Positions 2,128 through 53,921 of a DNA stretch of 63,728 bases are shown here, piece by piece. How positions within the stretch are numbered: the first letter of the stretch is position 1; each line of letters starts with the position of its first letter. Source of the stretch: Gemmatimonadota bacterium. GTDB lineage: Bacteria; Gemmatimonadota; Gemmatimonadetes; Gemmatimonadales; Gemmatimonadaceae. The stretch lies in NCBI GenBank assembly GCA_023249375.1, contig JAHFCT010000017.1, forward strand, positions 1 to 63,728, given 5' to 3'. A program made the translations under genes and the position numbers. Below the pieces are notes generated by a model. The model made no database searches, was not told the DNA's origin, and was given only the letters and a program-made list of their open reading frames with translations.

Positions 2128-2143
2128 TGTTTCACGTGAAACA
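2128..2143. other. parS: parS site 1
   Basis: TGTTTCACGTGAAACA is an exact copy of the ParB-binding consensus known from Bacillus and Caulobacter chromosomes. Here the palindrome extends to 22 bases (2125-2146). It lies between two convergent gene ends, outside coding sequence. Confidence 0.9.
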
Positions 2144-2883: not shown

Positions 2884-2899
2884 TGTTTCACGTGAAACA
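2884..2899. other. parS: parS site 2
   Basis: Second exact TGTTTCACGTGAAACA, extended to an 18-base palindrome. It lies 20 bases upstream of the coiled-coil gene start. The position could also let bound protein affect that gene's transcription. Confidence 0.9.
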
Positions 2900-3124: not shown

Positions 3125-3140
3125 TGTTTCACGTGAAACA
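3125..3140. other. parS: parS site 3
   Basis: Third exact TGTTTCACGTGAAACA, 241 bases from site 2 and 997 bases from site 1. The cluster of three within 1.0 kb resembles the centromere-like cluster of ParABS systems. Confidence 0.9.
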
Positions 3141-8810: not shown

Positions 8811-9293
8811 TCAGCCGTACTCAGACAGGTAGGCGCAGAATGGCCGGGGCTTGTCCGAGACGTTGCGAACCTCGAGCATGAACAGCTTGCCGGGTTCGCA
8901 CGTGTCGAGCTCCAGGGTGACGTCATTACGCCGGAAGATCCAGCATGGGATCTCCCCCTCGGACACGAACTGGGAAGCGCCGTCGATCGTCAGCCCGCGA
9001 ATCACAAAATGGCGAGCCGGCGAGGGCGGCACCTTGATCATGCTGACCTTGAAGGCACGCTCGAGCTGAAAGAAGAGCTTGCAGGTAGTGCCCGCGGGAA
9101 CAGGCTCAGCGCTGTCGATGCGCAGACCCTCGAGCAAGCAGCGCTTACACAGCACGCTACCATCGATGCTCGCATCGGCCATGCGGCGGATACGCGGCGT
9201 CGGCATCTTGCTGAACCGCAGCGCCGGCTCCGTCGCGCATGAGCACAGCGTGTGCAGCGAGTTGATGTCGAGGATGTGGACCGCGTAGCTCAT
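8811..9293 (-). CDS. Jelly-roll-like coat paralog with N-terminal Cys sites
   Basis: In this 160-residue protein the C-terminal ~100 residues follow the coat-like pattern: ARHFVIRGLTIDGASQF, EIPCWIFRRNDVTLELDTC, FMLEVRNVSDKPRPF. These align by eye with GSFTLLDLRVGKNSQF, VPARTFQENAVGIRLQLDTA and DITINVQNIG of the gene at 1-580. The N-terminus carries LCSC and LCKRC, possibly a zinc site. Probably a minor capsid or vertex protein. Confidence 0.6.
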   Translation of the reverse strand: MSYAVHILDINSLHTLCSCATEPALRFSKMPTPRIRRMADASIDGSVLCKRCLLEGLRIDSAEPVPAGTTCKLFFQLERAFKVSMIKVPPSPARHFVIRGLTIDGASQFVSEGEIPCWIFRRNDVTLELDTCEPGKLFMLEVRNVSDKPRPFCAYLSEYG

Positions 9294-9320: not shown

Positions 9321-9378
9321 TCAGACCCAGATGCGGATCACACGGTCGTTCTGGTCGAGCAGATCAGCGTTGCCGAGC
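9321..9378. repeat. Partial duplicate of the 3' end of the 9770 gene
   Basis: This ~58-base stretch matches 9770-9826 with roughly a dozen differences. On the minus strand it encodes a stray ELGNADLLDQNDRVIRIWV followed by a stop, against ERGNTDLLDQNGRVIRSWV at 9770. It has no start of its own and begins one base out of frame after the stop of the gene at 9379, so it reads as a gene remnant. Confidence 0.65.
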
Positions 9379-9666
9379 TCAGTAGATGTACAGCGTCTGG
9401 ATCACGTCCAGCGGGATGAACCGCTGAGACTCGGGCGAGTCGGTGCGCTCGTTGATCGGATACACCCATATGCCGAACTCTCCGTGCTCCACGCCCGGCG
9501 ACCAAAGCGTGGCGTCGAAGCTACGGCGGCCCATGTTGTCGTAGAATCTCGGCTGGCGCATCTGCTGACGGCTGAGATCGATGCGCACGCGGTAGTCGCG
9601 CAGGCCACCGAAAATCGTCTCGAGCGTGTCCTGATCCGTGCCTTCTCCGAAGTCGATGTTCATCAT
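9379..9666 (-). CDS. Unknown 95-residue protein
   Basis: The start is MMNIDFGEG (either ATG at 9666 or 9663) after a GGAGA site. The protein is beta-rich with several Tyr and Arg (RQPRFYDNMGRRSFD). Its stop lies against the duplicated fragment at 9321-9378. Confidence 0.65.
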   Translation of the reverse strand: MMNIDFGEGTDQDTLETIFGGLRDYRVRIDLSRQQMRQPRFYDNMGRRSFDATLWSPGVEHGEFGIWVYPINERTDSPESQRFIPLDVIQTLYIY

Positions 9667-9769: not shown

Positions 9770-10288
9770 TCAGACCCAGCTGCGGATCACGCGGCCGTTC
9801 TGGTCGAGCAGATCGGTGTTGCCGCGCTCGTTGACGTACCAGACGTTGGGGTAGAGCCCGCCAGCCTGCATCGCTGCGTCGATCGCGCGCAGCGCTGCAC
9901 GCGTGGTCTCGAACTTGCCGAACAGGCGCTGGCCTCGGTAGACCTCTTTGCCCATGCCACGTCGGGCGTCTTGGATCACGTAGTCGTCATCGGCGATGAC
10001 CGGGCCCTGCGCGTGCTCGTCGGACTCGATGAGCGCCTGCTCGGGAACAGCCACCTCGCGCCAGTCCCAGCTGCCACGGCCCAAGGAGCGGTTCTCGAAC
10101 GCGATCTGCGTCTTGTCACCAAGCTCCGGGAACATCGCGCGCTCGCGCTCGTCGACGTCGAACACGTGCACGTCGACACCATCGACGTCGTAGAGCGTGC
10201 CCCAGCCGTTGAGCATCACCGTGTGGAAGTGCTCCTCGGCAGCACTGTCAGCACGATGCAAACGAATCGGCCTGCGTGACCTCGGCAT
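9770..10288 (-). CDS. Unknown 172-residue protein with GNxDLLD...VIRxWV end
   Basis: It starts MPRSRRPIRLHRADS. The centre is acidic and beta-like (VDGVDVHVFDVDERERA) and the C-terminus, YVNERGNTDLLDQNGRVIR, is the part repeated at 9321. The central YDVDGVDVHVFDVD segment suggests a small beta domain. No function is assigned. Confidence 0.7.
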   Translation of the reverse strand: MPRSRRPIRLHRADSAAEEHFHTVMLNGWGTLYDVDGVDVHVFDVDERERAMFPELGDKTQIAFENRSLGRGSWDWREVAVPEQALIESDEHAQGPVIADDDYVIQDARRGMGKEVYRGQRLFGKFETTRAALRAIDAAMQAGGLYPNVWYVNERGNTDLLDQNGRVIRSWV

Positions 10289-17946: not shown

Positions 17947-18164
17947 CAGTGACCTCGCGCTTGTCGAGCCAGCGTTTCCAACGCGCAGTTGTAGGCCATG
18001 TCAAGGCCATGATGCAGCTCGTCTCGACTGTAATCAGGCACCGCGCCTATAACCAAGACCGTGAACAGCGCGGTGATCACGGTCTCTTTATGGACGCCGT
18101 CAGGGACGGCGTTGGCGATCTTGACCGCCAGATTGGCTGCTTCTTCTTGCTGGGGATCGCTCAC
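17946..18164 (-). CDS. Small helical protein
   Basis: 72 residues, helical throughout with a short hydrophobic run (VITALFTVLVIGAV, about 29-42) that is short for a membrane span. Coupled to the gene at 18161 by ATGA-type overlap. Confidence 0.68.
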   Translation of the reverse strand: MSDPQQEEAANLAVKIANAVPDGVHKETVITALFTVLVIGAVPDYSRDELHHGLDMAYNCALETLARQARGH

Positions 18165-18418
18165 TTGTCGGCTCCTTTTTTCGGCGGCTCCGAACCGAGA
18201 GCTTTGTTGGTGCCCGTCTTGAGCGTGCTGAATACTCGGCCCGCCAGGCGCGCGGTGCGCATGAAGTCGTCCATGCAGCCGGGACAGACGGGTTTACGAA
18301 CCTCGAACAGACCCAGCGGTTTCCACACGCAGCGCCACGTCGTCTTGTTCGAGCAGACCTCGCACGACTCCGCTGGATCGAGCGTGTTGACGTGAGAGAC
18401 TTTGGTGAAGTCAGCCAT
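18161..18418 (-). CDS. Zinc-ribbon small protein
   Basis: This 85-residue protein has CEVCSNKTTWRC and CPGC, matching a four-Cys ribbon, followed by a basic helical tail. The ATG at 18416-18418 was chosen because it overlaps the stop of the upstream gene. Confidence 0.75.
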   Translation of the reverse strand: MADFTKVSHVNTLDPAESCEVCSNKTTWRCVWKPLGLFEVRKPVCPGCMDDFMRTARLAGRVFSTLKTGTNKALGSEPPKKGADK

Positions 18419-19200: not shown

Positions 19201-19580
19201 TGCTGGCACTCCGGGCAGCCAAGACGACCGCACTCATTGCCGCCACCGCAGTGATCGCCGGCTATCCCTGGATCAAGAAACTTCTGCTGCAACGAGCCGT
19301 CGACACCTGTGCGGTGGCAAAACTCGCCACCCCAGTGTTCGGAGCGTCGTTTTCCGCAGTCTTCGCGGCCACAGATCGTCGCTGCGCATGTCAGAGCCGC
19401 ATGCTGAGTTGCAAGTTGGACAGCGCGCGCCCGCTCGTCGGACTCGCATTGATCGAGGAAAGCATACAGCTGGTCGCGTGCGTCCTGCGCCAGCTGCAAC
19501 TGTGGCTCAGGGGCAACCGTGTGTTGGTACTGCCGCCGCACCAGCACCCGCGCCTGCTCGATCGTGATCCTGTCGTTCAT
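19197..19580 (-). CDS. Cys-rich protein
   Basis: 127 residues, helical N-terminal two thirds, then a Cys/His/Gly-rich end with CGREDCGKRR, CHRTG, CGGG, CGRLGCPEC. Several zinc sites are possible. Confidence 0.7.
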   Translation of the reverse strand: MNDRITIEQARVLVRRQYQHTVAPEPQLQLAQDARDQLYAFLDQCESDERARAVQLATQHAALTCAATICGREDCGKRRSEHWGGEFCHRTGVDGSLQQKFLDPGIAGDHCGGGNECGRLGCPECQQ

Positions 19581-20011
19581 GGCTTATCCTCGATCTCGAC
19601 CTTGGCTTCCCACACGCACGAGACGTGGAGCACCTTCCAGGACGTGTTCTGCACGCGCATGGTCAACGACACCCCTGGCGCGAGCCATCCGATCGCGGTG
19701 TCCCAGTTCTCGATGCCGAGCAGATGAGAGCACAGAGACTCCCAGCTGAAGGCGGGCCGGCCGAACGGCTTGGTCTGCCCGCCCTGGACATGCAGCACAA
19801 GCAGATCGCGCGCCATCTCGATGTCCATGCGCAAGCGCGTCGGCACCCATGGACCGTCTTGGGGTGTAACGACGAGCTCGCCATGCTCGAGCGGATTGAG
19901 CACGAGCGTGTTGCTCGCCAGCAGCACGCCCTTGATCGGACGCTCCGAGCGCGCACGCTTCTCTGCATCCATCCTTACCAGCATCTTTTTGAGCGCAGCA
20001 GGATAGGTCAT
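19577..20011 (-). CDS. Jelly-roll-like coat paralog
   Basis: In this 144-residue protein, PTRLRMDIEMARDLLVLHV, then PFGRPAFSWESL and SLTMRVQNTSWKVLHVSCVW follow the same order as in the coat-like gene. The TRLRMDxxxARxLLV stretch and the VQNTS...CVWE end closely match the protein at 30143 (ALRMDRQIASNLIV; EVSNTSQQPIKVACIWE). Probably a minor structural protein. Confidence 0.6.
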   Translation of the reverse strand: MTYPAALKKMLVRMDAEKRARSERPIKGVLLASNTLVLNPLEHGELVVTPQDGPWVPTRLRMDIEMARDLLVLHVQGGQTKPFGRPAFSWESLCSHLLGIENWDTAIGWLAPGVSLTMRVQNTSWKVLHVSCVWEAKVEIEDKP

Positions 20012-23451: not shown

Positions 23452-23937
23452 CTACGCCTGGTCCACGACGCGCAGGACCATCGTTGCAGCGAACGGACGC
23501 GGATATTTCGACACGCTCTTGATCGTGAGCGTGATCTCCTGATCCTTGTTGCACCTGTCGAGCGGCATGTGGATCGTCGGAGCGTTTTCTTGAAACGTCC
23601 GGCCCGGGACTTCTCCCGTCGCTCCACCGAGCTGCGGGACTCCGTTGACGCTGATCTGCAGCAGCACGAAGTTCGAGGCGATGTCGCTTGGGATCAAGAG
23701 CCGACCGCCTTGGACGTCGAGTTGGGGCTTGGCGGTGACGTTGACGACGGCGTCTGGCATCACGTTGTCCAGCTGAAATCCCAGCGGCAACTGGCAGTAA
23801 AGGCGCGGTGATCGGCTCGAAGAGAGCCTTCGCTCGTCGAGGTAGTCGAGCACCTCGGTCGTGACGATGCGGATGAACGCGCGCACCGATGGGTACTCGG
23901 TGCTCAGCGCGTCAAGAAGATCTGTGATCATGGTCAT
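23452..23937 (-). CDS. Jelly-roll coat paralog closest to the left-end coat protein
   Basis: The 161-residue protein contains PLGFQLDN, GGRLLIPSDIASNFVLLQ, EVPGRTFQENAPTI and EITLTIKSVSKYPRPF. These match PLGFESS, GERLIVPSDIAGSFTLLD, AVPARTFQENAVGI and DITINVQN of the gene at 1-580 almost word for word. The N-terminus differs, with less Ala-rich helix. Strong candidate for a second capsid protein from gene duplication. Confidence 0.65.
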   Translation of the reverse strand: MTMITDLLDALSTEYPSVRAFIRIVTTEVLDYLDERRLSSSRSPRLYCQLPLGFQLDNVMPDAVVNVTAKPQLDVQGGRLLIPSDIASNFVLLQISVNGVPQLGGATGEVPGRTFQENAPTIHMPLDRCNKDQEITLTIKSVSKYPRPFAATMVLRVVDQA

Positions 23938-23975: not shown

Positions 23976-24374
23976 TCAGCAAGCGCTCTTGGACACCAGC
24001 TTCGAGCGCGCCAGCTTGAAGCATGGGTCGCACAGCCGGTAGTCACGATCAACCACATTGCGATCGTGCTCCATTGGATCGAGCGTCATCGCCGAGATCG
24101 TAAAGTCGTTCAACTTCTCACGTGGCGCGGGCTCGCCGCAGAGCGTGCAGCGGTGTTCGATGGGGTCGCCCAGCTCGAACGACAGGAGAGCTTCGCACGC
24201 AGGGCACAGATTCACGTGGGCCATGCGCGCTTGGCTTTCAGCCAGCGTGAAGTGTGCGGTGTACAAGACCACGGTATCGGCCGAGACGCTCGGCGGATCG
24301 TAGCGCGGAGGCTGGGCTCCGCAGCGCTTGCAGCGGAGAGAGATGGTCGACTCTGCGTCGTCAGGCTTTCTCAT
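23976..24374 (-). CDS. Double zinc-ribbon protein beside the replication gene
   Basis: 132 residues with CKRCGA, CPAC, CTLCGE and CDPC, i.e. two four-Cys sites about 40 residues apart. It follows the replication gene and shares its Cys-rich character. Confidence 0.72.
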   Translation of the reverse strand: MRKPDDAESTISLRCKRCGAQPPRYDPPSVSADTVVLYTAHFTLAESQARMAHVNLCPACEALLSFELGDPIEHRCTLCGEPAPREKLNDFTISAMTLDPMEHDRNVVDRDYRLCDPCFKLARSKLVSKSAC

Positions 24375-24406: not shown

Positions 24407-26239
24407 TCACAGCGACAACTCCTGCTGCAGCGGGGGTCCGCGCTTCTCGTTGGCGTGCGTGGACTCGATCCAGCGCTTGTAGACCGTGCCACACGCCTCG
24501 CAGAAGCAGCCCCGCGTCGGCAACGGGGTGAGAAAGCCCAGCGTCGCTGCGATGGCGCGGCGGCCCTCGAGCGCGGCGTAGATGCGCGCGTAGATGCTCG
24601 GATCGAGCAGCTCGAGATGGCCCTCGACCTTGCTGCCGTCTTTGATCAGGTACTTGCACAGCTCTTCGGCAACGTCCTTGCCGCAGGCGCGCACGTCGAC
24701 GACGGGCTTGTAGAGCGACTCGAGGGGCTTACTTGATCCGCCGCGCCGGTTTCTGTACCAGACCCGCTCGCGCTCGATGATCGCGTCTGCGGTCTTCTCG
24801 CTCAACCCCGAACGCAGGAGCCTGCAGCGCTGAGCCTGCAGCGCGTGATCCAGGCCCTGCACGCCAGCTGCAAACGTGTGCCGCTCGCCGCATGGGCAGC
24901 CAACGAACTCCGGGTCGATCTCGTCCAGGCGCGGGATCGCCTCGATGCCGACCATCCACAGCTTGTCGCGGTAGCCCTGCGACAACGACTCGCCCCACAG
25001 ATGCGCGATGCGCGCTTGATCGATGTACGGGCCGAGAAACCAAAGGTGCAGATGCGCGTGGCCTTCGCCTGCGAGGCCCTCGGTCACTTCGATCACGCGG
25101 CAGTAGCGCAAGAGCTTCACCAAGCGCCTTGACTCGCCCAGCCGCTTACCCTGGCGCTCTTGAAGATCGGACAAGAGCGCGGACCAGCGCTTACGCTGCT
25201 CCTGCGTCTTGGGCGTGTTCTCGAGCGCTGCAAGGTCGCGCTCGAGCGAAGCGATCTGCTTACCGACCTGCGCTGCGCCAGGGTCAGCCAGCAGATCGCA
25301 CTGCACGTGCTTACGCAGCAGCCGCCAGAAGCGCCGGAACGCCTTGGGCAGCTCGGCGACGTCTTTGACGATGTCGCCCGAGTGCGGAAGCGTCAGCGTG
25401 ATGAACTTCTGATCCCACTTGCCGCCGCGCACCGCTCGGCCGCTCTCGATGCGAGTCGGCGCGAGCAGCTGCTCTCGCCACAGCATCTGCATCGATTGCT
25501 GCTGGGCCGGGTAGAAGCGCTTGCGGAACTTCTTGATGCGACGATCACGGCAGTGCAGGCACAGCCGGTGGTTGTCGCAGGTCATCGCGATCTTGGGGCC
25601 CTTGCGGTTGCAGGCGCCGCAGAACTGCACCATCTGCTCAGCACCGCACTGACGCACGCGATCGAAGCGCTCCTGCTGACCCTTCTGCCGGCTCTTGTGC
25701 CAGTGGTAGCCCGAGATCTTGCCGCGCGGATGCTCCTTGTCACCGGGCTTGGGCCGACGGTGAGAGCGCGGATCGAGCGTCACGCCAAGCTCGCCTGCCA
25801 GCTCGACAGCGCGAGGGCTTGGCTTGCCCGAGAGCACGTCGAGCTGGTCGCCGACGGCTTTCATCTCGAGCTCGTCGATCATCTGCGCGTTGAAGGGCGA
25901 GTCCCAGTGATGAGGGTTGTCGCGCATCTTCTTGAACTTCTTGAAGTCGATTCCCTTGACGCGATCGTTGCTGGGGATGTCCAGCGAGAGCTCAGCCTGC
26001 AACGCGTGGTGCATCGCTCTGCGGTGTCGGTGCTCCTTGGTTTTCACCTCGAGCGCTTCGAGCCATGCGTTGCGATCGATGCGTGGACCGATGTGCGGCT
26101 GACGCTCGGGGATCACATCGACGATGTCGAGCTGCACACCCGACGTGTGGCCAGGCACGTAGCGCTCGGCCTGCAGAGCCGGCGCGCTCGCCGACTCGAC
26201 CGCCGCCAACGCGGTCAGCACAAGCTCAACGACGGCCAT
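24407..26239 (-). CDS. Rolling-circle replication initiator (HUH endonuclease)
   Basis: The 610-residue protein carries the HUH set: motif I FITLTLP (279-285), motif II HAHLHLW (394-400, the metal-binding His pair), and motif III ELCKYLIKD with Tyr530 and Lys533. Zinc-type Cys pairs lie at about 207-230 (CGAC, CLHC) and 448-450. Such enzymes nick one strand at an origin and stay bound through the Tyr. About 200 N-terminal residues are extra to the core; the total length is large for plasmid Rep proteins. The candidate origin lies about 1 kb to the right. Confidence 0.85.
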   Translation of the reverse strand: MAVVELVLTALAAVESASAPALQAERYVPGHTSGVQLDIVDVIPERQPHIGPRIDRNAWLEALEVKTKEHRHRRAMHHALQAELSLDIPSNDRVKGIDFKKFKKMRDNPHHWDSPFNAQMIDELEMKAVGDQLDVLSGKPSPRAVELAGELGVTLDPRSHRRPKPGDKEHPRGKISGYHWHKSRQKGQQERFDRVRQCGAEQMVQFCGACNRKGPKIAMTCDNHRLCLHCRDRRIKKFRKRFYPAQQQSMQMLWREQLLAPTRIESGRAVRGGKWDQKFITLTLPHSGDIVKDVAELPKAFRRFWRLLRKHVQCDLLADPGAAQVGKQIASLERDLAALENTPKTQEQRKRWSALLSDLQERQGKRLGESRRLVKLLRYCRVIEVTEGLAGEGHAHLHLWFLGPYIDQARIAHLWGESLSQGYRDKLWMVGIEAIPRLDEIDPEFVGCPCGERHTFAAGVQGLDHALQAQRCRLLRSGLSEKTADAIIERERVWYRNRRGGSSKPLESLYKPVVDVRACGKDVAEELCKYLIKDGSKVEGHLELLDPSIYARIYAALEGRRAIAATLGFLTPLPTRGCFCEACGTVYKRWIESTHANEKRGPPLQQELSL

Positions 26240-26421: not shown

Positions 26422-26805
26422 TCAGTGGATGTCTGGAAGTCGAAGGCCGCAGGATCGAAGAAAGTGGTGAAGCGACTGGCGCTCCTTGAACGCGTTGGTG
26501 GCTTGGTAGAGCGCGAGCAGCATGCGCTCGCGCTCTTCGTGCTCGGGCTGATTCGCGGGCTTCTGCGCGACGTGCTTGATCCACCGCTCGAGTTGCTGCC
26601 AGAAGATCTCTTTACTGACAGGCACGATGCCGCAGTTGATCGGGATGGCCTTGTCGCCCTGCTTGACGACGACGGCGACCAGATCCTTGCCTGGGTCGCT
26701 TGGGTGCTTTCCGAACTGCACCACGACGTTCTCGGCAGGGACGCGCCAGTCGCCTAGCAGAACGTGGACGGCCCACACCTCGTGTACGAGCGGCATGACG
26801 TGCAT
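26422..26805 (-). CDS. Unknown 127-residue protein
   Basis: MHVMPLVHEVWAVHVLLGDW, then a beta/alpha middle (DLVAVVVKQGDKAIPINCG), then a basic helix. Ribosome site GAAGGGGA. Not recognised. Confidence 0.68.
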   Translation of the reverse strand: MHVMPLVHEVWAVHVLLGDWRVPAENVVVQFGKHPSDPGKDLVAVVVKQGDKAIPINCGIVPVSKEIFWQQLERWIKHVAQKPANQPEHEERERMLLALYQATNAFKERQSLHHFLRSCGLRLPDIH

Positions 26806-26815
26806 GAAGTCCCCT

Positions 26816-27094
26816 TCACATGTGAAACGAAGCAAGCTCTTGTGCGACTGCGAGCAAGTCGTCGACGCGGTCGGTGTCGCTGGCGATGATCGCCACGGGG
26901 TTGTTCCCTTGGAAACCCCGCCTCATCTCGCTCAGGCGCCACAGCGCGTAGCTTCCGCCAGCACGACGCCGCGTCACGAAGTAGATGTCCAGCGATTCCG
27001 AATCGAAGGCGTCAACCAACTCGTGGCTCATGTGCTGATCGAAGAATCCCGAACTCTTGATCACCGAGTGCATCGTTCCAAGGCTTCGCGACAT
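26816..27094 (-). CDS. Unknown protein, first gene left of the candidate origin
   Basis: 92 residues, MSRSLGTMHSVIKSSGFFDQ, alpha/beta with a basic middle (VTRRRAGGSY). It has a very good GGAGG site and is the first minus-strand gene reading away from the origin region. Confidence 0.7.
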   Translation of the reverse strand: MSRSLGTMHSVIKSSGFFDQHMSHELVDAFDSESLDIYFVTRRRAGGSYALWRLSEMRRGFQGNNPVAIIASDTDRVDDLLAVAQELASFHM

Positions 27095-27540
27095 CGTGAC
27101 CTCCTGCTGAGACGAAACGAGCTAGCGACGAGACGACCTGCACACGCAGCCGGCGCGACGGCGAAAAACACGGCCCCTACTCGAGCGCGCGGTGCTGCGC
27201 ATGCGCGACGAGAAGCTCGTCAGCGCGCGGGCCCGCGAAGCGCGCCGAGCTCGACGCGCGCCGGCGCCCAGCCCGATCACCACCCGCGCCGACCCCGCTG
27301 AAAGCTCACCGCCGAAACGCCGGCTGAAACCGGGGGCAGGCGAGCTTGGAGCGGGATTAGGCATCGGCGAAAACCTCAATAACTGCGCGACTTGCACACT
27401 ATGTCGCCCCTCTAAGGCTCTCCGTGTCCTGGGGGGGCCTGGTCCGCCGGTCGGTGCACTTATGCCGAGCGAGGGTATGGACGGAAGAGGGCAGAGGCAG
27501 ACGAGTCGAGAGGGATCGGGATAAGGCATCCCCGGGCTCG

Positions 27541-27549
27541 TTGTCCACA
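27541..27549 (+). other. DnaA-box-like site
   Basis: TTGTCCACA differs by one base from the consensus TTATCCACA and is inverted relative to the pair at 27623 and 27634. Confidence 0.45.
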
Positions 27550-27622
27550 AGCTTGCACAGGGGCCGTTGAAGAAATCTGGTGTCAAGAGAGTCGGCGCCA
27601 AGATCAACGCGGAACCGTTGCG

Positions 27623-27631
27623 TGTGGACAA
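27623..27631 (-). other. DnaA-box-like site
   Basis: TGTGGACAA (reverse TTGTCCACA), one mismatch to consensus, two bases from the exact box. Confidence 0.45.
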
Positions 27632-27633
27632 CC

Positions 27634-27642
27634 TGTGGATAA
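27634..27642 (-). other. Exact consensus DnaA box
   Basis: TGTGGATAA is the reverse of TTATCCACA, the strict E. coli DnaA box. Confidence 0.6.
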
Positions 27643-27775
27643 CTTCATGTGGAACCTGAGTTGTGTCAGCTAAGTGTCCGTGTCCACTTGTGTATTTGTG
27701 TCATGTCCTGTCGCGACGGCATGTGGGATACGCGATGGCCTGTACCGTGGCATCGAAGATCGCTAGGGTGGTCGA

Positions 27776-28625: not shown

Positions 28626-28991
28626 ATGGAACAATCACTCAACGACAATCACAGGTGTTATGGCGCGGGTTGCGCGCACTGCAGCGAAGTCGCCAAGGTC
28701 AACCCACGACAGCGGCAGGCTTTTCTGAAAGGCAAGCGGCACATCGAAGACGTGTTCGGAAACAGATTCGAGTACGTGGTGGACGTGCCCACAGAGTTTG
28801 CGGATACGCTCACCTATCGTGTGCTGATCAAGAAAGGTCATGAGGTCGACTTCACGGATCTGAGTCGTCTGTCGGAAGTCTTCAAGACCAAGAAGATCAA
28901 CATCATGCACGATCGTGGTTTCTGCGGCAGCGACGTCACCCCGGCTTCCCCGGATGAGTTTTGGATCTACATCGACACGAGCTCTTCGTGA
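28626..28991 (+). CDS. Cys/His protein
   Basis: 121 residues: CYGAGCAHCSE near the start resembles a zinc knuckle; the middle is alpha/beta (FEYVVDVPTEFADTLTYRV). GC is lower than the window average. Confidence 0.68.
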   Translation: MEQSLNDNHRCYGAGCAHCSEVAKVNPRQRQAFLKGKRHIEDVFGNRFEYVVDVPTEFADTLTYRVLIKKGHEVDFTDLSRLSEVFKTKKINIMHDRGFCGSDVTPASPDEFWIYIDTSSS

Positions 28992-29308
28992 AAAGCCGCT
29001 GCGCACGAAAGATGGCGCGTCGGCAAATACGAATCGACCCGGCCGTTGTGCAGAAGCTGCGACGCAGATTTGCAGCGCAGCGGTCCGTGCTGCGCGAGAT
29101 CGCGCGCGGTGAAAAGAGCGTGCGCGTCGGCGTGAAGTCCTGCTGGTGCAAGCGTCAGTGGACCTGCGCGAAGTGCTCGAAGCCTTTTCAGTGCTGGTCC
29201 ACGTGGAACACACTATGGATGATGATGCCTCGGCCATGGCGCACCACGAAGCTGTGCAGGCGGTGTTATGGCCAGAAGCTGCTCACGGCTGTCAGGAGAT
29301 ACCGATGA
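28988..29308 (+). CDS. Basic zinc-binding protein, GTG start
   Basis: The GTG at 28988 lies in a GTGA overlap. The 106-residue protein is Arg-rich at the front (CARKMARRQIR, KLRRRF) and has CAKCSKPFQC and CRRC, so it could bind nucleic acid. Confidence 0.62.
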   Translation: MKSRCARKMARRQIRIDPAVVQKLRRRFAAQRSVLREIARGEKSVRVGVKSCWCKRQWTCAKCSKPFQCWSTWNTLWMMMPRPWRTTKLCRRCYGQKLLTAVRRYR

Positions 29309-29574
29309 CGCGCGGCGTTCGGCGAGGGGTGTGCCTGTACTGCGGCAACGTGATCACCGAGTGCACGTGCTGGGCTTTGGCCAGGGAGATCGTGCACAAC
29401 CTGCTCGAGCCCGGCGTCCTAGACCGCGACAAGTGGCTGCGGCAGTACACGCGGCTGAGACCACGGTTTGATGATCCCACGTGGGGAGATCTCTTCGTCG
29501 AAGAGTTGCAGGAGCAGTCCGCGCGCACGGCGCGGCAGCCTGCCGAAGATCGTGCGCCGGCTACGACAAGCTGA
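29305..29574 (+). CDS. Cys-pair protein, C-terminus near the IS remnant
   Basis: 89 residues from MTRGVRRGVCLYCGNV with a second pair CTC. The end runs straight toward the transposase fragment, so the last ~10 residues may have been altered by the insertion. Confidence 0.6.
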   Translation: MTRGVRRGVCLYCGNVITECTCWALAREIVHNLLEPGVLDRDKWLRQYTRLRPRFDDPTWGDLFVEELQEQSARTARQPAEDRAPATTS

Positions 29575-29885
29575 GCGACCTTGGGTATCAACACTTGCCA
29601 GTGGCCGAACGTGGCGACCCGCAGGTGGCCGAAGACTACTTGCCGATCGTCCACCTGATTTTCAGCAACATGAAGGCGTGGCTGAACGGCGTACATCACG
29701 GAGTCGCACCACAGCATCTTCAGGCGTACCTCAACGAGTTCACGTTCCGCTTCAACCGCCGCTTCTACCCGTTCAACGCCTTCCGGTCGTTGCTTGGTAT
29801 TGGCGGCGACACTGAAGCCCCCACCTACGCGGAGCTTTACTCGGGCGAATGGTCGCATCCGACTACGGCTAGCGGTCATGGTTGA
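29559..29885 (+). pseudogene. Truncated ISXO2-type (IS1595 family) transposase
   Basis: The frame YDKLSDLGYQHLP, DYLPIVHLIFSNMKAWL, GVHHGVAPQHLQAYLNEF, RFNRRFYPFNAFRSLLGI is the C-terminal part of an IS1595/ISXO2 transposase (DDE superfamily). Only the last ~108 residues remain; the N-terminus and the left end of the element are missing. Downstream, to about 29905, there may be a relic of the right terminal repeat. Confidence 0.82.
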
Positions 29886-30040: not shown

Positions 30041-30150
30041 GGCAAGGCGCCGCCAAGCGGCTCGTTGAGCCAGAGATCAGCAGAGTCTTTCTCGTGGATG
30101 AGGATCTCTTCGCCGTCGGGCGTGACTTGGATGACGGTGTTGTCAGACAT
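29998..30150 (-). CDS. 50-residue small protein
   Basis: MSDNTVIQVTPDGEEILIHE opens a short acidic protein whose second half (PARARCSRST) is in a different frame from the next gene and may be a read-through artefact. Its start overlaps the stop of the jelly-roll gene at 30143 by eight bases. Confidence 0.5.
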   Translation of the reverse strand: MSDNTVIQVTPDGEEILIHEKDSADLWLNEPLGGALPCTSPARARCSRST

Positions 30151-30502
30151 TGATGCCCTCCCAGATGCAGGCGACCTTGATCGGCTGCTGGCTCGTGTTG
30201 GAGACCTCGATCGTGATCTCGTCGCCCGCCTCGATCAGAGCGGTCGGCCAAGTCTGCACGGTCAGCAGGTGAATCAGATCGAAAGGATCGTACCTGCAAA
30301 GATCCATGTCGAACACGTTGTTCATGCGCCCGAAGAAGAGTTGATGGACGATGAGGTTACTTGCGATCTGCCGGTCCATACGCAGCGCTGTCGGCTTCCA
30401 CGGGTTGCGATGCCGAGCGCGCAGAGAGCCACGGTGCAAGCCGTTGGGAGAGCTTTGCTCTGCCAGCTCGAGCGTGTTGGAGCGCGTCAGCATGTTACTC
30501 AT
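30143..30502 (-). CDS. Jelly-roll-like coat paralog
   Basis: In this 119-residue protein, WKPTALRMDRQIASNLIVHQ, LIEAGDEITIEVSNTS and PIKVACIWEG follow the family order and pair closely with the protein at 19577. N-terminal 35 residues are polar. Probably a minor capsid protein. Confidence 0.62.
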   Translation of the reverse strand: MSNMLTRSNTLELAEQSSPNGLHRGSLRARHRNPWKPTALRMDRQIASNLIVHQLFFGRMNNVFDMDLCRYDPFDLIHLLTVQTWPTALIEAGDEITIEVSNTSQQPIKVACIWEGINV

Positions 30503-40791: not shown

Positions 40792-41060
40792 AGCCAAAGA
40801 AGAATCCGCACATGCTGCTCACCGCGCTTGACCCGCCCGTCGATCGCAACGGGACGATGCGTCGATGGCGATGTGACTACTGCCGCGAGGTCGGAACGCT
40901 GGACGTCCTGCAAGACGAGCCATGCAGCTACGTGTACTTGCCGTGCAGCGTGTGCGGCCAGAGCCCCGAGTGCGCGCCCGACTGCAAAGGCATCCGCGAT
41001 CTCCTGCGCCAGCCCGGCATCTACATCGCGGGACTCGACAGGCCCAAGAGCAGACACTAG
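40788..41060 (+). CDS. Zinc-ribbon protein, GTG start
   Basis: 90 residues from GTG at 40788 (GTGA overlap). CDYCRE and CSVCGQSPECAPDC supply two zinc sites. Its stop shares the CTAG at 41057-41060 with the opposite gene. Confidence 0.68.
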   Translation: MKPKKNPHMLLTALDPPVDRNGTMRRWRCDYCREVGTLDVLQDEPCSYVYLPCSVCGQSPECAPDCKGIRDLLRQPGIYIAGLDRPKSRH

Positions 41061-41773
41061 AAGCCGTCGTCTCGGATGCGAAGCTCGACCACTTCCCACA
41101 CGCAGCGGAAGTTGATTGGCTTGAGGCTGTCGTTTCCAAGCTGGAACGTCACATCAACAGCGGTCTGAACCGGCCCGAACAACTCGTCCCACTTGTCGAA
41201 GAGCACCAGCGTGCTGATCGGCGTGCCGCTGGCGGGACTCGGCGACTGCGCCGAAAACATCGACCGATTACCAACCCTGGCTTCGAGCACGACGACCCAA
41301 GCGAGCGAGTCGGGCTCAGACACGATCAGCCGGCGAAAGAGCGTGGGTGCACTCACGCGCACGTAGGCGCGCGCGGAACCGGACGGTGGAATGAGCACCT
41401 GCATCTCCAGCAGCGCTGGCTTGGCGTCGTCGCTCTCGTAGACGTGATCGTAGCGATGGCCGATCACTGGGTTGCCACCGGCCCACGGGTGGAGGTCGTG
41501 GCTTCCCCGTTGGATGCCCGACGAAGAGAGATCCGAGTAAGCCAGTCGATGTGATTGTGGTTGCGCGAGCACCACGTCAGGTGGATGGGTCGCCAACGCC
41601 TCGGGCTCGGCGTCGAGCGCCGCGGTAGACCCGCGCTGCCTTGTGAGCTGCTGGCACGCTTGGCACTCGCTCATGCCACACAGCTGCTGGTGCGGGCAGA
41701 AGTGCCGCTCGCCTGCGTGCCGCAGCGTCCGAAAGCAGAGCTCGCACGATGTCTGATCGGGCAGCGCCATCAC
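41057..41773 (-). CDS. Zinc-finger plus jelly-roll-like structural protein
   Basis: 238 residues. N-terminal part: CELCFRTLRH, FCPHQQLCGMSECQACQQL, at least two zinc sites (about 10-42). The rear ~130 residues have AYVRVSAPTLFRRLIVSEPD, EARVGNRSMFSAQS and PINFRCVWEVVELRI, the family order seen at 30143 and 52196 (VGN.SxF, PI.F.CVWE). The start may be GTG at 41773 or ATG at 41770. A virion protein with an added metal-binding foot is plausible. Confidence 0.6.
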   Translation of the reverse strand: MMALPDQTSCELCFRTLRHAGERHFCPHQQLCGMSECQACQQLTRQRGSTAALDAEPEALATHPPDVVLAQPQSHRLAYSDLSSSGIQRGSHDLHPWAGGNPVIGHRYDHVYESDDAKPALLEMQVLIPPSGSARAYVRVSAPTLFRRLIVSEPDSLAWVVVLEARVGNRSMFSAQSPSPASGTPISTLVLFDKWDELFGPVQTAVDVTFQLGNDSLKPINFRCVWEVVELRIRDDGF

Positions 41774-42761: not shown

Positions 42762-44450
42762 CTACTTCGCGACCCAACCGAGGTTTGTGGCAACACCCGA
42801 TTCCTTCACCCAGAACGTCGTGCCAGGCACAGCCGCCGGATCGAGACTCGAGTAGAGATCACCAGGCGATCCAACAACCACACCGTTGGGACCGCCGACC
42901 GTCGTGCCCGAGCTCCACACCGCACCGGCAGGGCCGCCCGTGCGCACGGTGCCGAAGAAGCCTGCGCCCGTCGCGCGCACCACCTCGAACGTCTTGGTGT
43001 CGGTGTCGTCCGCGAGGAACAAGCTCGTGGGGTCCGCTCGGAAATAGTAGAAGAGGTTGTTGCCGTTGACGCCGGTGATGATGTTCGCCAACCCAAAGCG
43101 GTTGGACTTGATGCGCGCGTAGCCGCCGTCGGTCGGACCAGGGCCCGTACCCTGAGCGTTGGGGCCGTAGATGACGAAGCCCTCGCCCGTGACGTTGGGA
43201 AGCGGATCGCCGTCGGTCTGCCATGCGCCCTGCTTCCACACGGCACCCGTGCCGGCTGCAGTGCGCACGTCGCGAAAGATTGGGCGGCCGAACGCATCGA
43301 CGGGCGCTGCCGTCAGACCTGCATCAGTGATCGCACCAGCGCCGCCCGGGTTCTCGAAGAGCAGAGCGTTGGGCGAGCCGGGGATCGCTCCCGGAGAGCA
43401 CGCAACCCAGCCGGTGTTCGTGGAGACACCCGACTCCTTGACCCAGAGCGTCGCACCGGCGCCGCCCGTGGTGCTCAGGTAGTAGTCGCCGGGCGAGCCC
43501 GTGACGAACGTGTTGGGGTCGGCCTGCGCGCCCGAGCTCCACACCGATCCGCCGGACGTCATGAACGTGCGTCCGAAGATCTCGTTATTGGAGCGCTTCA
43601 CCTGGAAGATGCGCGCGGCGTTGTTGTCGTTGACGATGAAACCGTCGAGACCGAACGGCGCGTTGGCGCCGCCGTCCTCGAAGCCACACAGGTAGAAGCT
43701 GTTTCCGCCGTTGACGCCGGGGATGACTGCCAGCTCGCCGAATCCGTTGGGCTCGTAGAAGCCGAAGGCGCCCTGGGTTGCATCGGGATCTGCACCCGCG
43801 GGCTGCAGCGGGCTCGCGCCGTACGCCACGAAGCCTTCGCTCGTGGCATCGCCCGCGTCACCATCCACTTGCCAGCGGCCGAGCCGATGTACCACGCCGC
43901 GGCCGGTCGGGTAGCCTGGCAGCGGCGCGCTCTTGCGGTAGTCGTGGACCTGCGGACGCGAGAAAGCATCGGGCACGCCCGCCGTCAGCTTCGGATCGGT
44001 GATCGCGCCGTTGCCAGCAGGGTTCTCGAACAGGATCGAGTTGGGATCGCCAACGACGGGACCGCCGCTCGGGATCGGCGGCGGGATCGGCGGCACCGCC
44101 ACAACAGGGCCGATGCCCTCGCCCTCGTTGAACAGCAGCACCGTGAGGTTGAAGTAGGGCGGATCGACCGGCACGCCGGTGCCCACCTGCAGCACGCTGA
44201 TGAACACCGTGCCCGTGGGCGTCACCTGCGCACCCGGAGTCGCTTGGAAGTTGGGCGGCAATCCCACCGCCGGGTAGCCCTCGTGGAACGAGAGCGGCGA
44301 CGAGAGCGTCACCTCGTACTGACCGACCGCGAGCCGCGTGAAGCTCGTCACGCCCTTGGCCGCGGGCAGGTTACTGGTGAACGGCGGCGCCACCACCGGG
44401 ACGACGATTGCGGAGGCGTGGATGCGGTTTGGGGACTCGACGGCGCTCAT
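42762..44450 (-). CDS. Spike-like protein 1, N-terminal module plus two tandem repeats
   Basis: 562 residues. The N-terminal ~100 residues (MSAVESPNRIHAS; FTRLAVGQYEVTLSSPL) match the same part of the proteins at 44555 and 45443. A Pro-rich hinge (VPPIPPPIPSGGP) leads to two tandem units of about 210 residues, each opening with SILFENPAG or ALLFENPGG and ending GTTFWVKESGV or ATLWVKESGVSTN with GWV. Tail-fibre or spike proteins with such layout bind receptors. Frame selected by the N-terminal homology; a longer upstream reading was rejected. Confidence 0.72.
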   Translation of the reverse strand: MSAVESPNRIHASAIVVPVVAPPFTSNLPAAKGVTSFTRLAVGQYEVTLSSPLSFHEGYPAVGLPPNFQATPGAQVTPTGTVFISVLQVGTGVPVDPPYFNLTVLLFNEGEGIGPVVAVPPIPPPIPSGGPVVGDPNSILFENPAGNGAITDPKLTAGVPDAFSRPQVHDYRKSAPLPGYPTGRGVVHRLGRWQVDGDAGDATSEGFVAYGASPLQPAGADPDATQGAFGFYEPNGFGELAVIPGVNGGNSFYLCGFEDGGANAPFGLDGFIVNDNNAARIFQVKRSNNEIFGRTFMTSGGSVWSSGAQADPNTFVTGSPGDYYLSTTGGAGATLWVKESGVSTNTGWVACSPGAIPGSPNALLFENPGGAGAITDAGLTAAPVDAFGRPIFRDVRTAAGTGAVWKQGAWQTDGDPLPNVTGEGFVIYGPNAQGTGPGPTDGGYARIKSNRFGLANIITGVNGNNLFYYFRADPTSLFLADDTDTKTFEVVRATGAGFFGTVRTGGPAGAVWSSGTTVGGPNGVVVGSPGDLYSSLDPAAVPGTTFWVKESGVATNLGWVAK

Positions 44451-44486
44451 GGGCAGAGCGTGCCACCAACGGCCCCAAAACGAAAG

Positions 44487-44526
44487 CAGGCGCCCCATCA
44501 TCCATGTAGGACAACGGGGGCGCCTG
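44487..44526. terminator. Hairpin after the 44555 gene
   Basis: CAGGCGCCCC and GGGGCGCCTG pair over ten bases around a 20-base loop, 29 bases beyond the stop of the gene at 44555. No T-run follows. Confidence 0.45.
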
Positions 44527-44554
44527 GACCTGCTGCCTTGGCGAAGGACAGTGC

Positions 44555-45313
44555 TCAGGCGGCCGAGTAGCCAACCACGCGCCACACCGTGCCGTCGTAC
44601 TGGTACGCGAGGTACAGGCCAGTGGCGTTGCCGGGCGCGAACGTGGCCGCAAACAGGCCGGTCGTGGGGTCCTCGACCAGAGCTCCGTTGCCGTCGATGA
44701 CGAGTCCTGCTTCGACCGCCGCCACGATGTCCTTGAGCACGCGGCGCGTGTTGGGGAGCAGCGTGACGCCCGGCGCCGGCAACTGCACCGTGAGCGCCCC
44801 GTTGGCGTTGACTTGGTTGATCACGCCCGCCGCGAGCGGGAACGTGCCGGGGCCCGTGATGACCGCGGCCGAGAACGGCAGGCCCAAGCCGCCGGGCTCG
44901 GGCGCCGGAGCGACCGGCAGCGCCAGCGACTTGCTGCCGGGCACCTTCACCACGATGACGTCGAAGAACGTCACGTCGACCGGGTTCTGGTTCGCGTCGT
45001 ACGCGTTCACGAACACCGCCGTCTCGGGCGACAAGCTCGGCGGCACCAGCGGCAGGTCGTTGACCTGGGCCTGGATCGTGCCGGTGAAGTTCACGCCGGC
45101 CGAGCAGTGCACGATCGCCTCGGCGCCGTTGATGGGCTGCTCGAGCGTGATCTGGTAGCTGCCCACGCCGGTGCGCAGGAACGACTTGATGCCGTTGCTG
45201 GTGATCTGGTTGTCCGTCGGCTCGGGCGGAACCGAAGCGAACGGAGGAGGGACGGGAACGACGCCAACGAAGGCGCCACACGCGTGGATTGCATCGGGAG
45301 TCTCGAGGGCCAT
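44555..45313 (-). CDS. Spike-like protein 2
   Basis: 252 residues. The start MALETPDAIHACGAF and the SFLRTGVGSYQITLEQPI region match the other spikes; the C-terminal part (LKDIVAAVEAG, FAATFAPGNATGLYLAYQ, TVWRVVGY) resembles fibre-tip domains. The PVAPAPEPGG hinge is shorter than in the others. Confidence 0.72.
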   Translation of the reverse strand: MALETPDAIHACGAFVGVVPVPPPFASVPPEPTDNQITSNGIKSFLRTGVGSYQITLEQPINGAEAIVHCSAGVNFTGTIQAQVNDLPLVPPSLSPETAVFVNAYDANQNPVDVTFFDVIVVKVPGSKSLALPVAPAPEPGGLGLPFSAAVITGPGTFPLAAGVINQVNANGALTVQLPAPGVTLLPNTRRVLKDIVAAVEAGLVIDGNGALVEDPTTGLFAATFAPGNATGLYLAYQYDGTVWRVVGYSAA

Positions 45314-45442
45314 GACAGTCTCCTTGTGGATTGCACCGGCCGCTCAAGGCCGTGTCGACCGCAAGAGGATGCCACAGCACGGTTGCCGCTCACAAGGCCA
45401 GCAGCAGCCGCCGCTCACGCCGGCACGCCGGCCGACACGAGA

Positions 45443-46867
45443 CTACAGCGACTCTTGGTAGCCAGTGACCCAGAGCTCGACCGAGCTGCCTGGTGCGTCG
45501 GTGCGGTACTGAACCGAGCCTGCCGTCGGGCACTGAAACTGACCCGTCACCTCGGAGGAATCTGCGAACGTGGTCAGCACGTTGGGCGCGGTGTTTGCGC
45601 TGACACCGAAGTAGGCGTTGGCGCCTGCGCCGTTAGTGAAGTCGGCCTCGAAGTAGCCGATGGCGGGCCCCGCCGGCAGAACGGCCAGACACGAGACGCC
45701 CGTGGCGATGGTCGCGGCTCCACCAGAGAGAACACGAGTCTCGGTGTTGTCGCGATACTGGTAGGTGCGCTCGTTGCCGTTGCCGCGTTGGTCGAATGGG
45801 ATGATGTTGCCGGCGCTGTCGACCGCAAACGACCCGACTTGCTGGGTCGAATCCGAGTATCCGGCAGGCCCTGCACCCATCGGCGAGTTGAGAGACGCGA
45901 TGACGCCGACACCGGCGGTGCCCGCCACGGCGTAGACGTAGTAGAACGAGCTGTTGGTGGGGCCTGCGACGTCGAGTCCGCCGACGCCGACCGCTGAAGT
46001 GTCGATCGTGTGGGCAAACAGTGATTGCACCGTGCGTGCCGCCGCGTTGAGCGAGAAATCGAATACACGGTACTTGCCCTTCGCAACCGAAACGTGCGTG
46101 GCGTCGGTGTAGCTGAGTTGGAAGCCCGTGACGTAGTTGTCCGGCAGCACAGGATGTGCTTGGCCGAGCTGGCGCCAGACGCCGCCCGTAGCATCCCACT
46201 CCCACTCGCGATAGGTGCCGATAAGATCCGGCAGCTGCAACGAGTGTGCTGACTGGTTACCGATCTCGTTCTCGATGTTCGCAACCGACAAGACGCTCAG
46301 GCACTTGTCGCTGTTGTTGACGCACTTGAGGCCGAAGCGATCCTTGTCCGCAGGAGCAGCCGGCGGGTTCACCGTGAACGATCCGAAGGCGCACGAGTAC
46401 GGGTAGATGAAGTTGGCAGCGAGCGGTGCGCCTGGCGTCGTCGTCAGCGTCGGGCCGAACGGCAGCGCACCACCGCCCGAGGGCGGCGGGGGCGGCACCG
46501 GCACCGGAGGCAGCGCCACGTTGATGGGCAGGCCCGCCAGCGACAGCCGCAGCACCTGCACGTAGAAGAGCGGCATGTCCGCTGCGACGCCGAAGACGTC
46601 GAACGTCGTCACCACCACCGCGCTGCCGTCCGCGTTGAGCTGAGCTCCGATGCTGCCCAGCTGGTTCGCGGGCTGAGTCGCAAGCACCACGGACTCGTTC
46701 AGAGAAAGCCCCTGCTCGAGATCCAGCTCGTAGACGCCCGCGCTCTGCCGCGTGAAGCCAGCAAAGCCGTTGGAGTTGACGACCGCCGATGTGAACGGCG
46801 CAGGCACTGGATCGGTGCCCACGAACGTGCCGCAGGCGTGGATTGCATCAGGGGTCTCGAGAGCCAT
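45443..46867 (-). CDS. Spike-like protein 3
   Basis: 474 residues. It shares MALETPDAIHACGTF and the SAGVYELDLEQGLSL element with protein 2, and a PPVPVPPPPPSGGGA hinge. The long C-terminal part (about 140-474) is beta-rich with Asn/Thr/Gly patches (YTDATHVSVAKGKYRVFD, NSSFYYVYAVAGTAG). At DNA level the first ~45 bases resemble those of protein 2 (about four fifths identical), so the module was copied recently. Confidence 0.72.
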   Translation of the reverse strand: MALETPDAIHACGTFVGTDPVPAPFTSAVVNSNGFAGFTRQSAGVYELDLEQGLSLNESVVLATQPANQLGSIGAQLNADGSAVVVTTFDVFGVAADMPLFYVQVLRLSLAGLPINVALPPVPVPPPPPSGGGALPFGPTLTTTPGAPLAANFIYPYSCAFGSFTVNPPAAPADKDRFGLKCVNNSDKCLSVLSVANIENEIGNQSAHSLQLPDLIGTYREWEWDATGGVWRQLGQAHPVLPDNYVTGFQLSYTDATHVSVAKGKYRVFDFSLNAAARTVQSLFAHTIDTSAVGVGGLDVAGPTNSSFYYVYAVAGTAGVGVIASLNSPMGAGPAGYSDSTQQVGSFAVDSAGNIIPFDQRGNGNERTYQYRDNTETRVLSGGAATIATGVSCLAVLPAGPAIGYFEADFTNGAGANAYFGVSANTAPNVLTTFADSSEVTGQFQCPTAGSVQYRTDAPGSSVELWVTGYQESL

Positions 46868-47087: not shown

Positions 47088-47399
47088 TTAGACCATCGCG
47101 CGCAACACTTCGAGCCCAGGGTCAGACGTGCAGATCAGGCACCATGCCACGAACTGACTGCGGTTGGGCAGCCAGCGCATGAAGTGCTCGACGTCGGGCG
47201 TGATCTCCGCGTGGCACCCGGCGCACACGTGCGCTTCGCGCCAGCAGCGCACGCACGCGAACGCCTCGCGCGATGGGTTTTTGCGCACCACGATCACCGC
47301 GAGATCGCCGACGATGAGCGTCACAGGACAGCAGCAGCACTGCACGCGCTGCTTCACGCGTTTGAACGGGGAGAGCGACTGCTCGGTGCGCGTCGTCAT
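47088..47399 (-). CDS. Cys-rich protein
   Basis: 103 residues with CCCCP, CVRCWREAHVCAGC and CLIC; several zinc sites. Basic front helix (KRVKQRVQ). Confidence 0.68.
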   Translation of the reverse strand: MTTRTEQSLSPFKRVKQRVQCCCCPVTLIVGDLAVIVVRKNPSREAFACVRCWREAHVCAGCHAEITPDVEHFMRWLPNRSQFVAWCLICTSDPGLEVLRAMV

Positions 47400-51958: not shown

Positions 51959-52206
51959 TCTCTTTCAGCAGCGCAAACCTGGCAGATCCGCAGGTACGTC
52001 GAGACGCGGAACATCCTCGGCTCTCCCGTTCTCGGCATCACCACGGACTCCCACGAGCGCTCGATCCGGATGAACTGGTGCTTGGTCACATCGCTGCAGC
52101 GCAAGCACATCTCCCAGTCGAAGTAGTTGTCCGAGTCGTTGTCGGGCTGGTTGGGATCGGTGTCGGAGAAAGCACGCATGAAGCCCAACAGGACGTCACG
52201 TTGCAT
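51955..52206 (-). CDS. Small Cys-containing protein
   Basis: 83 residues, MQRDVLLGFMRAFSDTDPNQ; CLRCSDV and CQVCAAE form a ribbon. Overlaps the DUF1643 gene by ATGA. Confidence 0.66.
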   Translation of the reverse strand: MQRDVLLGFMRAFSDTDPNQPDNDSDNYFDWEMCLRCSDVTKHQFIRIERSWESVVMPRTGEPRMFRVSTYLRICQVCAAERE

Positions 52207-52771
52207 CGGGCGGTACCACGGCTTTGCGAAAGCGACGCAGCTCGGCTGCCATCCGGCGGATGTCGACCTCGGCATGTGGGTTGAGCTCGCCGTCAAACGG
52301 AAACGTCAGATCCTTCTTGTAGTGATGCTTCAAGCGCAGGTCGACCGCATCCAGATCGACGAGCTTTGACCAATCGTCTGGCTGGGCATCGGGGTCGACG
52401 ATGAAACGCGCCTCACCTTCCCAGATCGCCGAGAACGCCATGGGCTCGCGCGAGACGTTGGTGACGCAGAGCATGAGATCGTCGTCGACCTGCACTTCGC
52501 CGATCATCTTCGCCCAGTTGTGCACCAACTCGGCGTTCGCAAGCGAAGTGCCAGAGACACTCATGAACGTCGGCGAGACCGTGCCGATGCGCACGTCGTG
52601 AAGCTCGAAGGCCCGTCCGATCTCAGGCGACACGTGCAGCTGGTGCGGCGCGAACGGTACCCATATCCGAGCCGCGACGTTGATGCTCGCCTCGGGCTGG
52701 ACCACGAAGTGACCGCGCACGCTGATGAGTTTGGTGCTCAGAACGCAACGGTAGGGTGCGGGCTCGCTCAC
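52196..52771 (-). CDS. Jelly-roll-like coat paralog with helical tail
   Basis: 191 residues. FVVQPEASINVAARIWVPFA, ELHDVRIGTVSPTFMSVSG, ELVHNWAKMIGEVQVDDDLM, CVTNVSREPMAFSAIWEGEA follow the family order, closest to the proteins at 41057 and 30143. A C-terminal basic helical extension of ~60 residues is particular to this copy. Likely a minor capsid protein. Confidence 0.62.
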   Translation of the reverse strand: MSEPAPYRCVLSTKLISVRGHFVVQPEASINVAARIWVPFAPHQLHVSPEIGRAFELHDVRIGTVSPTFMSVSGTSLANAELVHNWAKMIGEVQVDDDLMLCVTNVSREPMAFSAIWEGEARFIVDPDAQPDDWSKLVDLDAVDLRLKHHYKKDLTFPFDGELNPHAEVDIRRMAAELRRFRKAVVPPDAT

Positions 52772-53115: not shown

Positions 53116-53379
53116 TCAGTCTCCTTTCAAATCAGCAACGTCCGTTGCGAGCGCAACTTCCTGATCGACCCTAGCCGACATCGCATCGAGCGCCATTTTC
53201 GCGTGCAGCATGCTCGCCAACCTCTTCGGCAGCAGCATCATGCCGAGCAAGGTTGCTTCGTTCTGCGTCAGCGTAACGCGCCCGACCGTTCCGTTGTCGC
53301 CGGAGATCACGATGATGTGCTCACGCGATGCCTCATCGACGAGCGCACCGATCAGCCTATAGTGGTCGATGCGGTTCAT
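53116..53379 (-). CDS. Unknown helical protein
   Basis: 87 residues, MNRIDHYRLIGALVDEASRE, helical with an acidic tail. Overlaps the lipoprotein gene by ATGA. Confidence 0.65.
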   Translation of the reverse strand: MNRIDHYRLIGALVDEASREHIIVISGDNGTVGRVTLTQNEATLLGMMLLPKRLASMLHAKMALDAMSARVDQEVALATDVADLKGD

Positions 53380-53921
53380 GGGCACTTGCACGCTGGGCAG
53401 ATGATCGAGTTGTGATCCGTCGGGCTGCACTCGTACTTCGTCGAAGCGCCAGGCACGACGATGTTGCACGGCGTTCCGCACTTGATGTTGCCGCCTAGAT
53501 CGGGGCCGGCACACATTTCTCCCAAGTGGTACGAGCAGTAGCGCGGGTCCGCTCCGTCCGAGCACACGATGGTGCCCGTGCCGCCGCAGACGTTCAGGGG
53601 GCCGGCGTCAGCAGATCCTGCTCCACCGCTACCGCCCGCGCCGCCCGCGCCACCATGGCCTGCCGCAGCCATAGAGGCGTCCACGCCGAGCGCGCCTGCG
53701 TCGGCGTCGAGCGTGCCCTGCGCGTCGGCCGCAGAGCCGTCTGGCACGCCTGCGTCCAGCAGAACGTCGTGCGCCCCCTTCGGGCCCAAGAGCGAGACGT
53801 CGCTACCGCCGCCGCCAGCTGCACCGACGTCGCCCGCGTCACGCTGCTGCGCTGCCATGGGACTGCGATCGATGCCGCACGCCGACAAACAGACTAGACC
53901 GATGAACAGCAAACTCTTCAT
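53376..53921 (-). CDS. Secreted lipoprotein of myxobacterial type
   Basis: 181 residues. MKSLLFIGLVCLSACGIDRS is a signal peptide with lipobox LSAC (Cys about 15). A long Ala/Asp/Gly/Ser linker (about 20-115) leads to a compact Cys-rich end (CGGTGTIVCSDGADPRYCSY, CGTPCNIV, CPACKCP). Such linkers are typical of Myxococcota surface lipoproteins. It may be displayed on the cell or block receptors. Confidence 0.85.
   Translation of the reverse strand: MKSLLFIGLVCLSACGIDRSPMAAQQRDAGDVGAAGGGGSDVSLLGPKGAHDVLLDAGVPDGSAADAQGTLDADAGALGVDASMAAAGHGGAGGAGGSGGAGSADAGPLNVCGGTGTIVCSDGADPRYCSYHLGEMCAGPDLGGNIKCGTPCNIVVPGASTKYECSPTDHNSIICPACKCP

Follow-up and report, generated by a model that had tools for sequence, protein, structure and literature searches.

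The window analysed here, a stretch of 63,728 nt, is the whole of one contig (C46) of a 120-contig, 3.81-Mb Gemmatimonadota genome, and approximately 125 genes were called on it, mostly small and nearly all on the minus strand. Among them lies rep (Table 1), whose frame starts with ATG preceded by an AGG and has a GC content by codon position of 0.67/0.44/0.85, coding-frame-like at 64% GC; the 610-codon frame is a genuine gene. Two small genes and then an intergenic region between divergent genes lie upstream of it, and three parS sites and a family of beta-domain paralogues are found elsewhere on the contig.

Table 1. Coordinates of rep, its motifs and the other features of the window.
Feature	Position (nt)	Strand	Remark
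rep	24407..26239	(-)	HUH Rep_1-type initiator, 610 aa
Rep motif I	25379..25405	(-)	FITLTLPHS, aa 279-287
Rep motif II	25040..25060	(-)	HAHLHLW, aa 394-400
Rep motif III	24638..24664	(-)	aa 526-534, including E526 (Y-4), Y530 and K533
Small gene upstream of rep	26422..26805	(-)	
Small gene upstream of rep	26816..27073	(-)	
Intergenic region between divergent genes	27074..27775	(.)	702 nt, candidate origin
Three-box DnaA cluster	27541..27642	(.)	within 102 nt
parS	2128..2143	(.)	perfect 16-mer TGTTTCACGTGAAACA
parS	2884..2899	(.)	perfect 16-mer TGTTTCACGTGAAACA
parS	3125..3140	(.)	perfect 16-mer TGTTTCACGTGAAACA
Paralogous beta-domain family, seven members	2-580, 8811-9293, 19577-19972, 23452-23937, 30143-30502, 41057-41770, 52196-52771	(-)	

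The three HUH motifs of Rep lie where the first-pass annotation had put them, with the HUH pair at H396/H398 and motif III reading KYLIK at residues 529-533, and among the long reading frames of the window this ordered triple occurs only in Rep. The several Cys pairs remarked on in the same annotation are likewise seen (e.g. C207/C210, C227/C230, C448/C450), as part of a wider set that includes C198, C221 and C578/C580/C583; residues 198-230 form a Cys-rich, zinc-like region, a helical insert occupies approximately residues 317-378 between motifs I and II, and the C-terminus carries CFCEACG (578-584). The Pfam profile Rep_1 (PF01446) matches Rep with E=1e-8 and 35.4 bits, exceeding its curated cut-off of 33.2 bits, and the match is split into two collinear segments at motifs II and III; REP_ORF2-G2P (7e-6) falls just under its own cut-off. 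Profile match, motifs and catalytic residues support the original proposal that a large element carries an HUH initiator of the rolling-circle type. Two other identities were considered and rejected: an IS91/ISCR transposase, for which there was no Pfam or NCBIfam IS91 match, and a relaxase, for which no relaxase-family profile matched at E<=1.

No Walker A motif is present in the Rep protein, and unwinding would therefore have to come from the host, as is established for helicase-less plasmid Reps. Among the latter, pC194 RepA has Tyr214, Glu210 and Glu142 as its essential residues, and pUB110 RepU has Tyr241, Glu237 and Glu163 (PMC5703833). Like these Rep_1 proteins, Rep combines the HUH with a single-Tyr YxxK motif, a Glu at Y-4 (Glu526, the position of pC194 Glu210) and the lack of a helicase domain. 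E384 sits in a conserved E/D-[VI]-[TS] strand preceding the HUH and is a putative counterpart of pC194 Glu142. Unlike them, Rep is 610 aa long and has a long N-terminal extension, the helical insert and extra Cys clusters, and it lies on an element of at least 63.7 kb rather than on a small plasmid. An AlphaFold model built from six sequences reached a mean pLDDT of only 60.6, with the motif III stretch below 50, and a structural comparison of this low-confidence model gave no fold match and listed no HUH chain; the model is too poor for this to be evidence against an HUH fold. The catalytic residues are intact, and Rep is therefore not a decayed relic; judged by its sequence, it is best read as a divergent HUH endonuclease of the Rep_1 superfamily (pC194/pUB110-like) with a complete catalytic set, predicted to nick DNA.

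Close relatives of Rep were not encountered in any collection searched: tblastn returned no homologues from 50,697 phage records or 72,556 plasmid records, pattern scans gave none in IMG/VR viral or GTDB genome contigs, and none was seen in 298 genomes of the phylum. When 395 genomes of the phylum were searched with the Rep_1 profile, seven gave matches, including the window's own genome, with four over the cut-off; a profile match in G345 (L139) is spurious, the protein being malic-enzyme-like. In multiple alignments Rep is approximately 24-36% identical over the core to Rep_1 proteins from related genomes of the phylum (L006-L010), with which it shares a TLT-type motif I, an HLH-type motif II, a YxxK motif III and the upstream Cys pattern (C198-G, C227-x-x-C230). 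The closest in motif style is L010, on contig C91 of genome G371 (LTLTLP, VHLHV, EVLKYATK), which like Rep has TLTLP and a Glu at Y-4, yet the similarity is weak and a pairwise phmmer comparison gave no match; tblastn with the L010 protein against phages and plasmids also found no relatives. Unlike rep, the phylum Rep_1 genes sit in chromosomal islands, that of G040 beside a serine-recombinase-like gene and that of G371 among ordinary chromosomal genes and next to a type I restriction system. In the latter genome the Rep gene lies directly downstream of the type I restriction-modification operon (L014:9720-19092), which suggests that an RCR-type island carrying a defence system has integrated there.

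The contig has no terminal repeat and genes are cut at both of its ends, and it is therefore a fragment. A circular contig was considered and rejected: one reading frame can be followed through the joined ends, yet its product fails to extend the paralogous C-terminus. The genome size of at least 63 kb given in the first-pass annotation holds for the length of the contig, which may not correspond to one complete replicon. The composition is uniform, 8-kb pieces correlating at 0.93-0.96 with the whole contig, and it is an outlier with respect to the remaining genome (0.74-0.88); it follows that the contig lies outside the chromosome, was acquired recently or has been binned with the wrong genome. 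Further contigs of the same element were sought among the starts (2-20 kb each) of the other contigs, none of which has the composition of the window. A lipoprotein-like gene at 53376-53921 (-) carries a Gly/Ala-rich tract in a style that we take to be Myxococcota-like, presumably a hint of wrong-host binning.

The recognised genes are phage-type accessories, namely an SLT transglycosylase, an M23 peptidase, N6_N4 and Dam methylases and an HD dNMP phosphatase, accompanied by DUF5131, DUF1643, DUF4326, a dual-specificity phosphatase and an ocr-like protein. Such a gene set, apart from the dual-specificity phosphatase, and the ends cut through genes would be consistent with the contig coming from a very large tailed phage or prophage that keeps its structural and replication genes outside the contig and in which Rep plays a minor part or serves late replication. 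Against this, gene scans of the window recognised no polymerase, helicase, terminase, portal, capsid, integrase or relaxase, although the contig is incomplete and the element may carry such genes outside it, and the only Walker-A candidates were two short chance-like strings; a stretch of 63.7 kb and approximately 125 genes with no convincing P-loop ATPase, replication or structural gene would be odd for such a phage. Nor is there a related virus in IMG/VR or the phage records, and a search for one through DUF5131 and HD-phosphatase neighbourhoods yielded contigs that share only a few accessory genes and were rejected as relatives. We consider a tailed phage possible but doubtful.

The intergenic region upstream of rep is the candidate origin. 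Three DnaA boxes lie within it (27541-27549 on the plus strand, 27623-27631 and 27634-27642 on the minus strand, the last a perfect TTATCCACA), at a distance of 1.3-1.4 kb on the upstream side of rep. Of 300 first-order shuffles, 0 reached three boxes in 110 bp. Around 27074-27775 there are no iteron-like direct repeats, and no obvious AT-rich unwinding stretch is present at the candidate origin, where AT content peaks at approximately 0.5 per 60 nt. An assumed pC194-type nick consensus had no match with <=3 mismatches; a divergent Rep may use another site. The first-pass annotation had named an independent DNA polymerase and theta origin in the flanks as evidence that would speak against rolling-circle replication; the DnaA-box cluster goes some way toward the latter, and no DNA polymerase is encoded in the window. 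Close to the candidate origin lies a probable decayed IS1595-type (ISXO2-like) transposase in broken frames (28961-29885, +); the Pfam match behind this identification came with no gene assignment.

The three parS sites are perfect copies, compared with 0.15 sites expected by chance in the window at <=3 mismatches, and zero-mismatch parS within this genome occurs only on this contig. The genome has a single ParB gene (C73:83045-83326), approximately 1 kb from a near-identical site, GTTTCACGTGGAAC, at C73:84355, and chromosomes of related genomes carry 0-2 copies of parS each, as expected for chromosomal parS. No ParA or ParB gene is present in the window, the contig being incomplete, and the host's only ParB could read the contig's three sites, an argument that wrong-host binning, which is possible, would undercut. 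Two viral contigs with an extended parS palindrome (L272, L273) were examined as relatives and set aside, sharing no protein with the window. The parS sites surround a coiled-coil-like gene (2147-2863).

These features bear on a second alternative, in which theta replication starts from the DnaA-box region and Rep is cargo, a captured gene or an auxiliary factor (e.g. in replication restart or as a late amplification switch). The divergent intergenic position of the box cluster near rep and the large size of the element would suit such a mode, and parS sites suit low-copy theta replicons. Rep_1 plasmids are of small size, and staphylococcal plasmids above 8 kb typically replicate by theta (PMC5703833), which speaks against a rolling-circle mode here. 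The chromosomal-island setting of the other Rep_1 genes in the phylum would likewise allow Rep to be cargo. However, no theta initiator was found, the candidate origin has neither iterons nor an obvious AT-rich unwinding stretch, and Rep, the only replication protein found, adjoins the DnaA-box region and retains its catalytic residues. We regard theta replication with Rep in such a secondary role as rather unlikely.

A third reading starts from the seven-member beta-domain family. The model of one member (23452-23937; pLDDT 75) is a jelly-roll-like sandwich, the best structural matches of which, at Z 8.0 and lower, mix viral capsids with unrelated proteins; the capsid jelly rolls among them are those of PR772, vaccinia D13, HHIV-2 and SPV1. 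The family is possibly structural, and the model is a lead for a tailless capsid rather than evidence of one. The genomes of known tailless DJR viruses measure 7-18 kb, and some of these viruses do without a packaging ATPase (PMC5894146). It is conceivable, if improbable, that the contig belongs to a virus-like element of a new, large class (>60 kb) that has neither a terminase nor a packaging ATPase; such an element would have a capsid of several paralogous single jelly-roll proteins, replicate with a Rep_1 HUH nickase and segregate by the host's chromosomal ParB through its own array of canonical parS sites.

Finally, that Rep acts in transfer, as the first-pass annotation had suggested as an option, is very improbable: HUH Reps of pC194, pUB110 and pTA1060 can serve as relaxases in ICEBs1-mediated transfer (PMC5714925), but Rep matches no relaxase family, and neither a relaxase, a coupling-protein or T4SS gene nor any other conjugation gene turned up in scans of the window.

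The simplest model using all of the parts is a phage-plasmid-like replicon, and we put the chance at about even that Rep is the replication initiator of a large phage-like element, extrachromosomal and incompletely assembled, with maintenance by DnaA and ParB and amplification by Rep. In such an element, Rep would bind a double-strand origin near its own gene, H396 and H398 would hold the metal, and Y530 would nick and stay on the 5' end while the strand is displaced by a host helicase and host polymerase; Glu526 may then permit hydrolytic termination, as proposed for pC194. With no helicase or polymerase encoded in the window, the element depends on its host, with the qualification that a polymerase or ParAB could lie outside the window since the contig is incomplete. 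In a quiet mode the element would be kept at low copy by host DnaA acting at the box cluster and host ParB acting at parS, and nicking by Rep would start rolling-circle amplification. Nicking, the rolling-circle mode, the use of host DnaA and ParB and the phage-plasmid life style are what we infer from these parts.

A phage-plasmid-like replicon of this kind has several points of comparison. HUH Reps are known in dsDNA viruses, among them P2-like Myoviridae, Corticoviridae and rudiviruses of approximately 35 kb (PMC6668415), and these are a precedent for HUH initiators in dsDNA genomes of moderately large size; the contig differs from them in being larger and in having no detected terminase, capsid or tail gene. 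Like phage-plasmids and low-copy parS plasmids, it joins phage-type genes with centromere-like sites; unlike them, it lacks ParA/ParB in the window, and its sites are of the chromosomal type. A partial parallel is SGI1, which is reported to hijack the parABS of IncC plasmids (PMC10954446): both would be mobile elements using a partition system that they do not encode, except that in the present case ParB would be supplied by the host chromosome, a use that is predicted only. An HUH Rep in a dsDNA element is therefore of a known kind, and the size, the divergence and the combination of parS with DnaA boxes make this one a variant.

Small RCR plasmids and ssDNA phages measure a few kb, in contrast to the contig at >=63.7 kb, which may not be a single physical replicon. 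Rolling-circle replication scaled up in a large element, as first proposed, is possible. If rolling circle truly drives a replicon of >60 kb, it would challenge the usual size limit of this mode, which is commonly ascribed to the exposure of single strands. Such an element would also be a test case for a dual life, being maintained by host DnaA and ParB and amplified by Rep. A mobile element that lacks ParAB and relies on the ParB of the host chromosome, recruited by perfect parS sites, would represent a simple, testable form of partition hijacking.

Several further features of the contig deserve mention. Three adjacent paralogous long proteins (579, 252 and 474 aa), two of which start MALETPDAIHACG, are encoded at 42762-46867 (-); they are possibly fibre-like, and the two of them that were tested had no match in PHROGs. 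An Rfam scan gave no match. CxxC pairs recur in many of the small genes (e.g. 18161-18418, 23976-24374, 47088-47399), an unusual zinc-ribbon-like abundance. Lastly, a 60-nt direct repeat, 90% identical between its copies (9321-9380 and 9770-9829), lies at the 3' ends of neighbouring genes and suggests a partial gene duplication.
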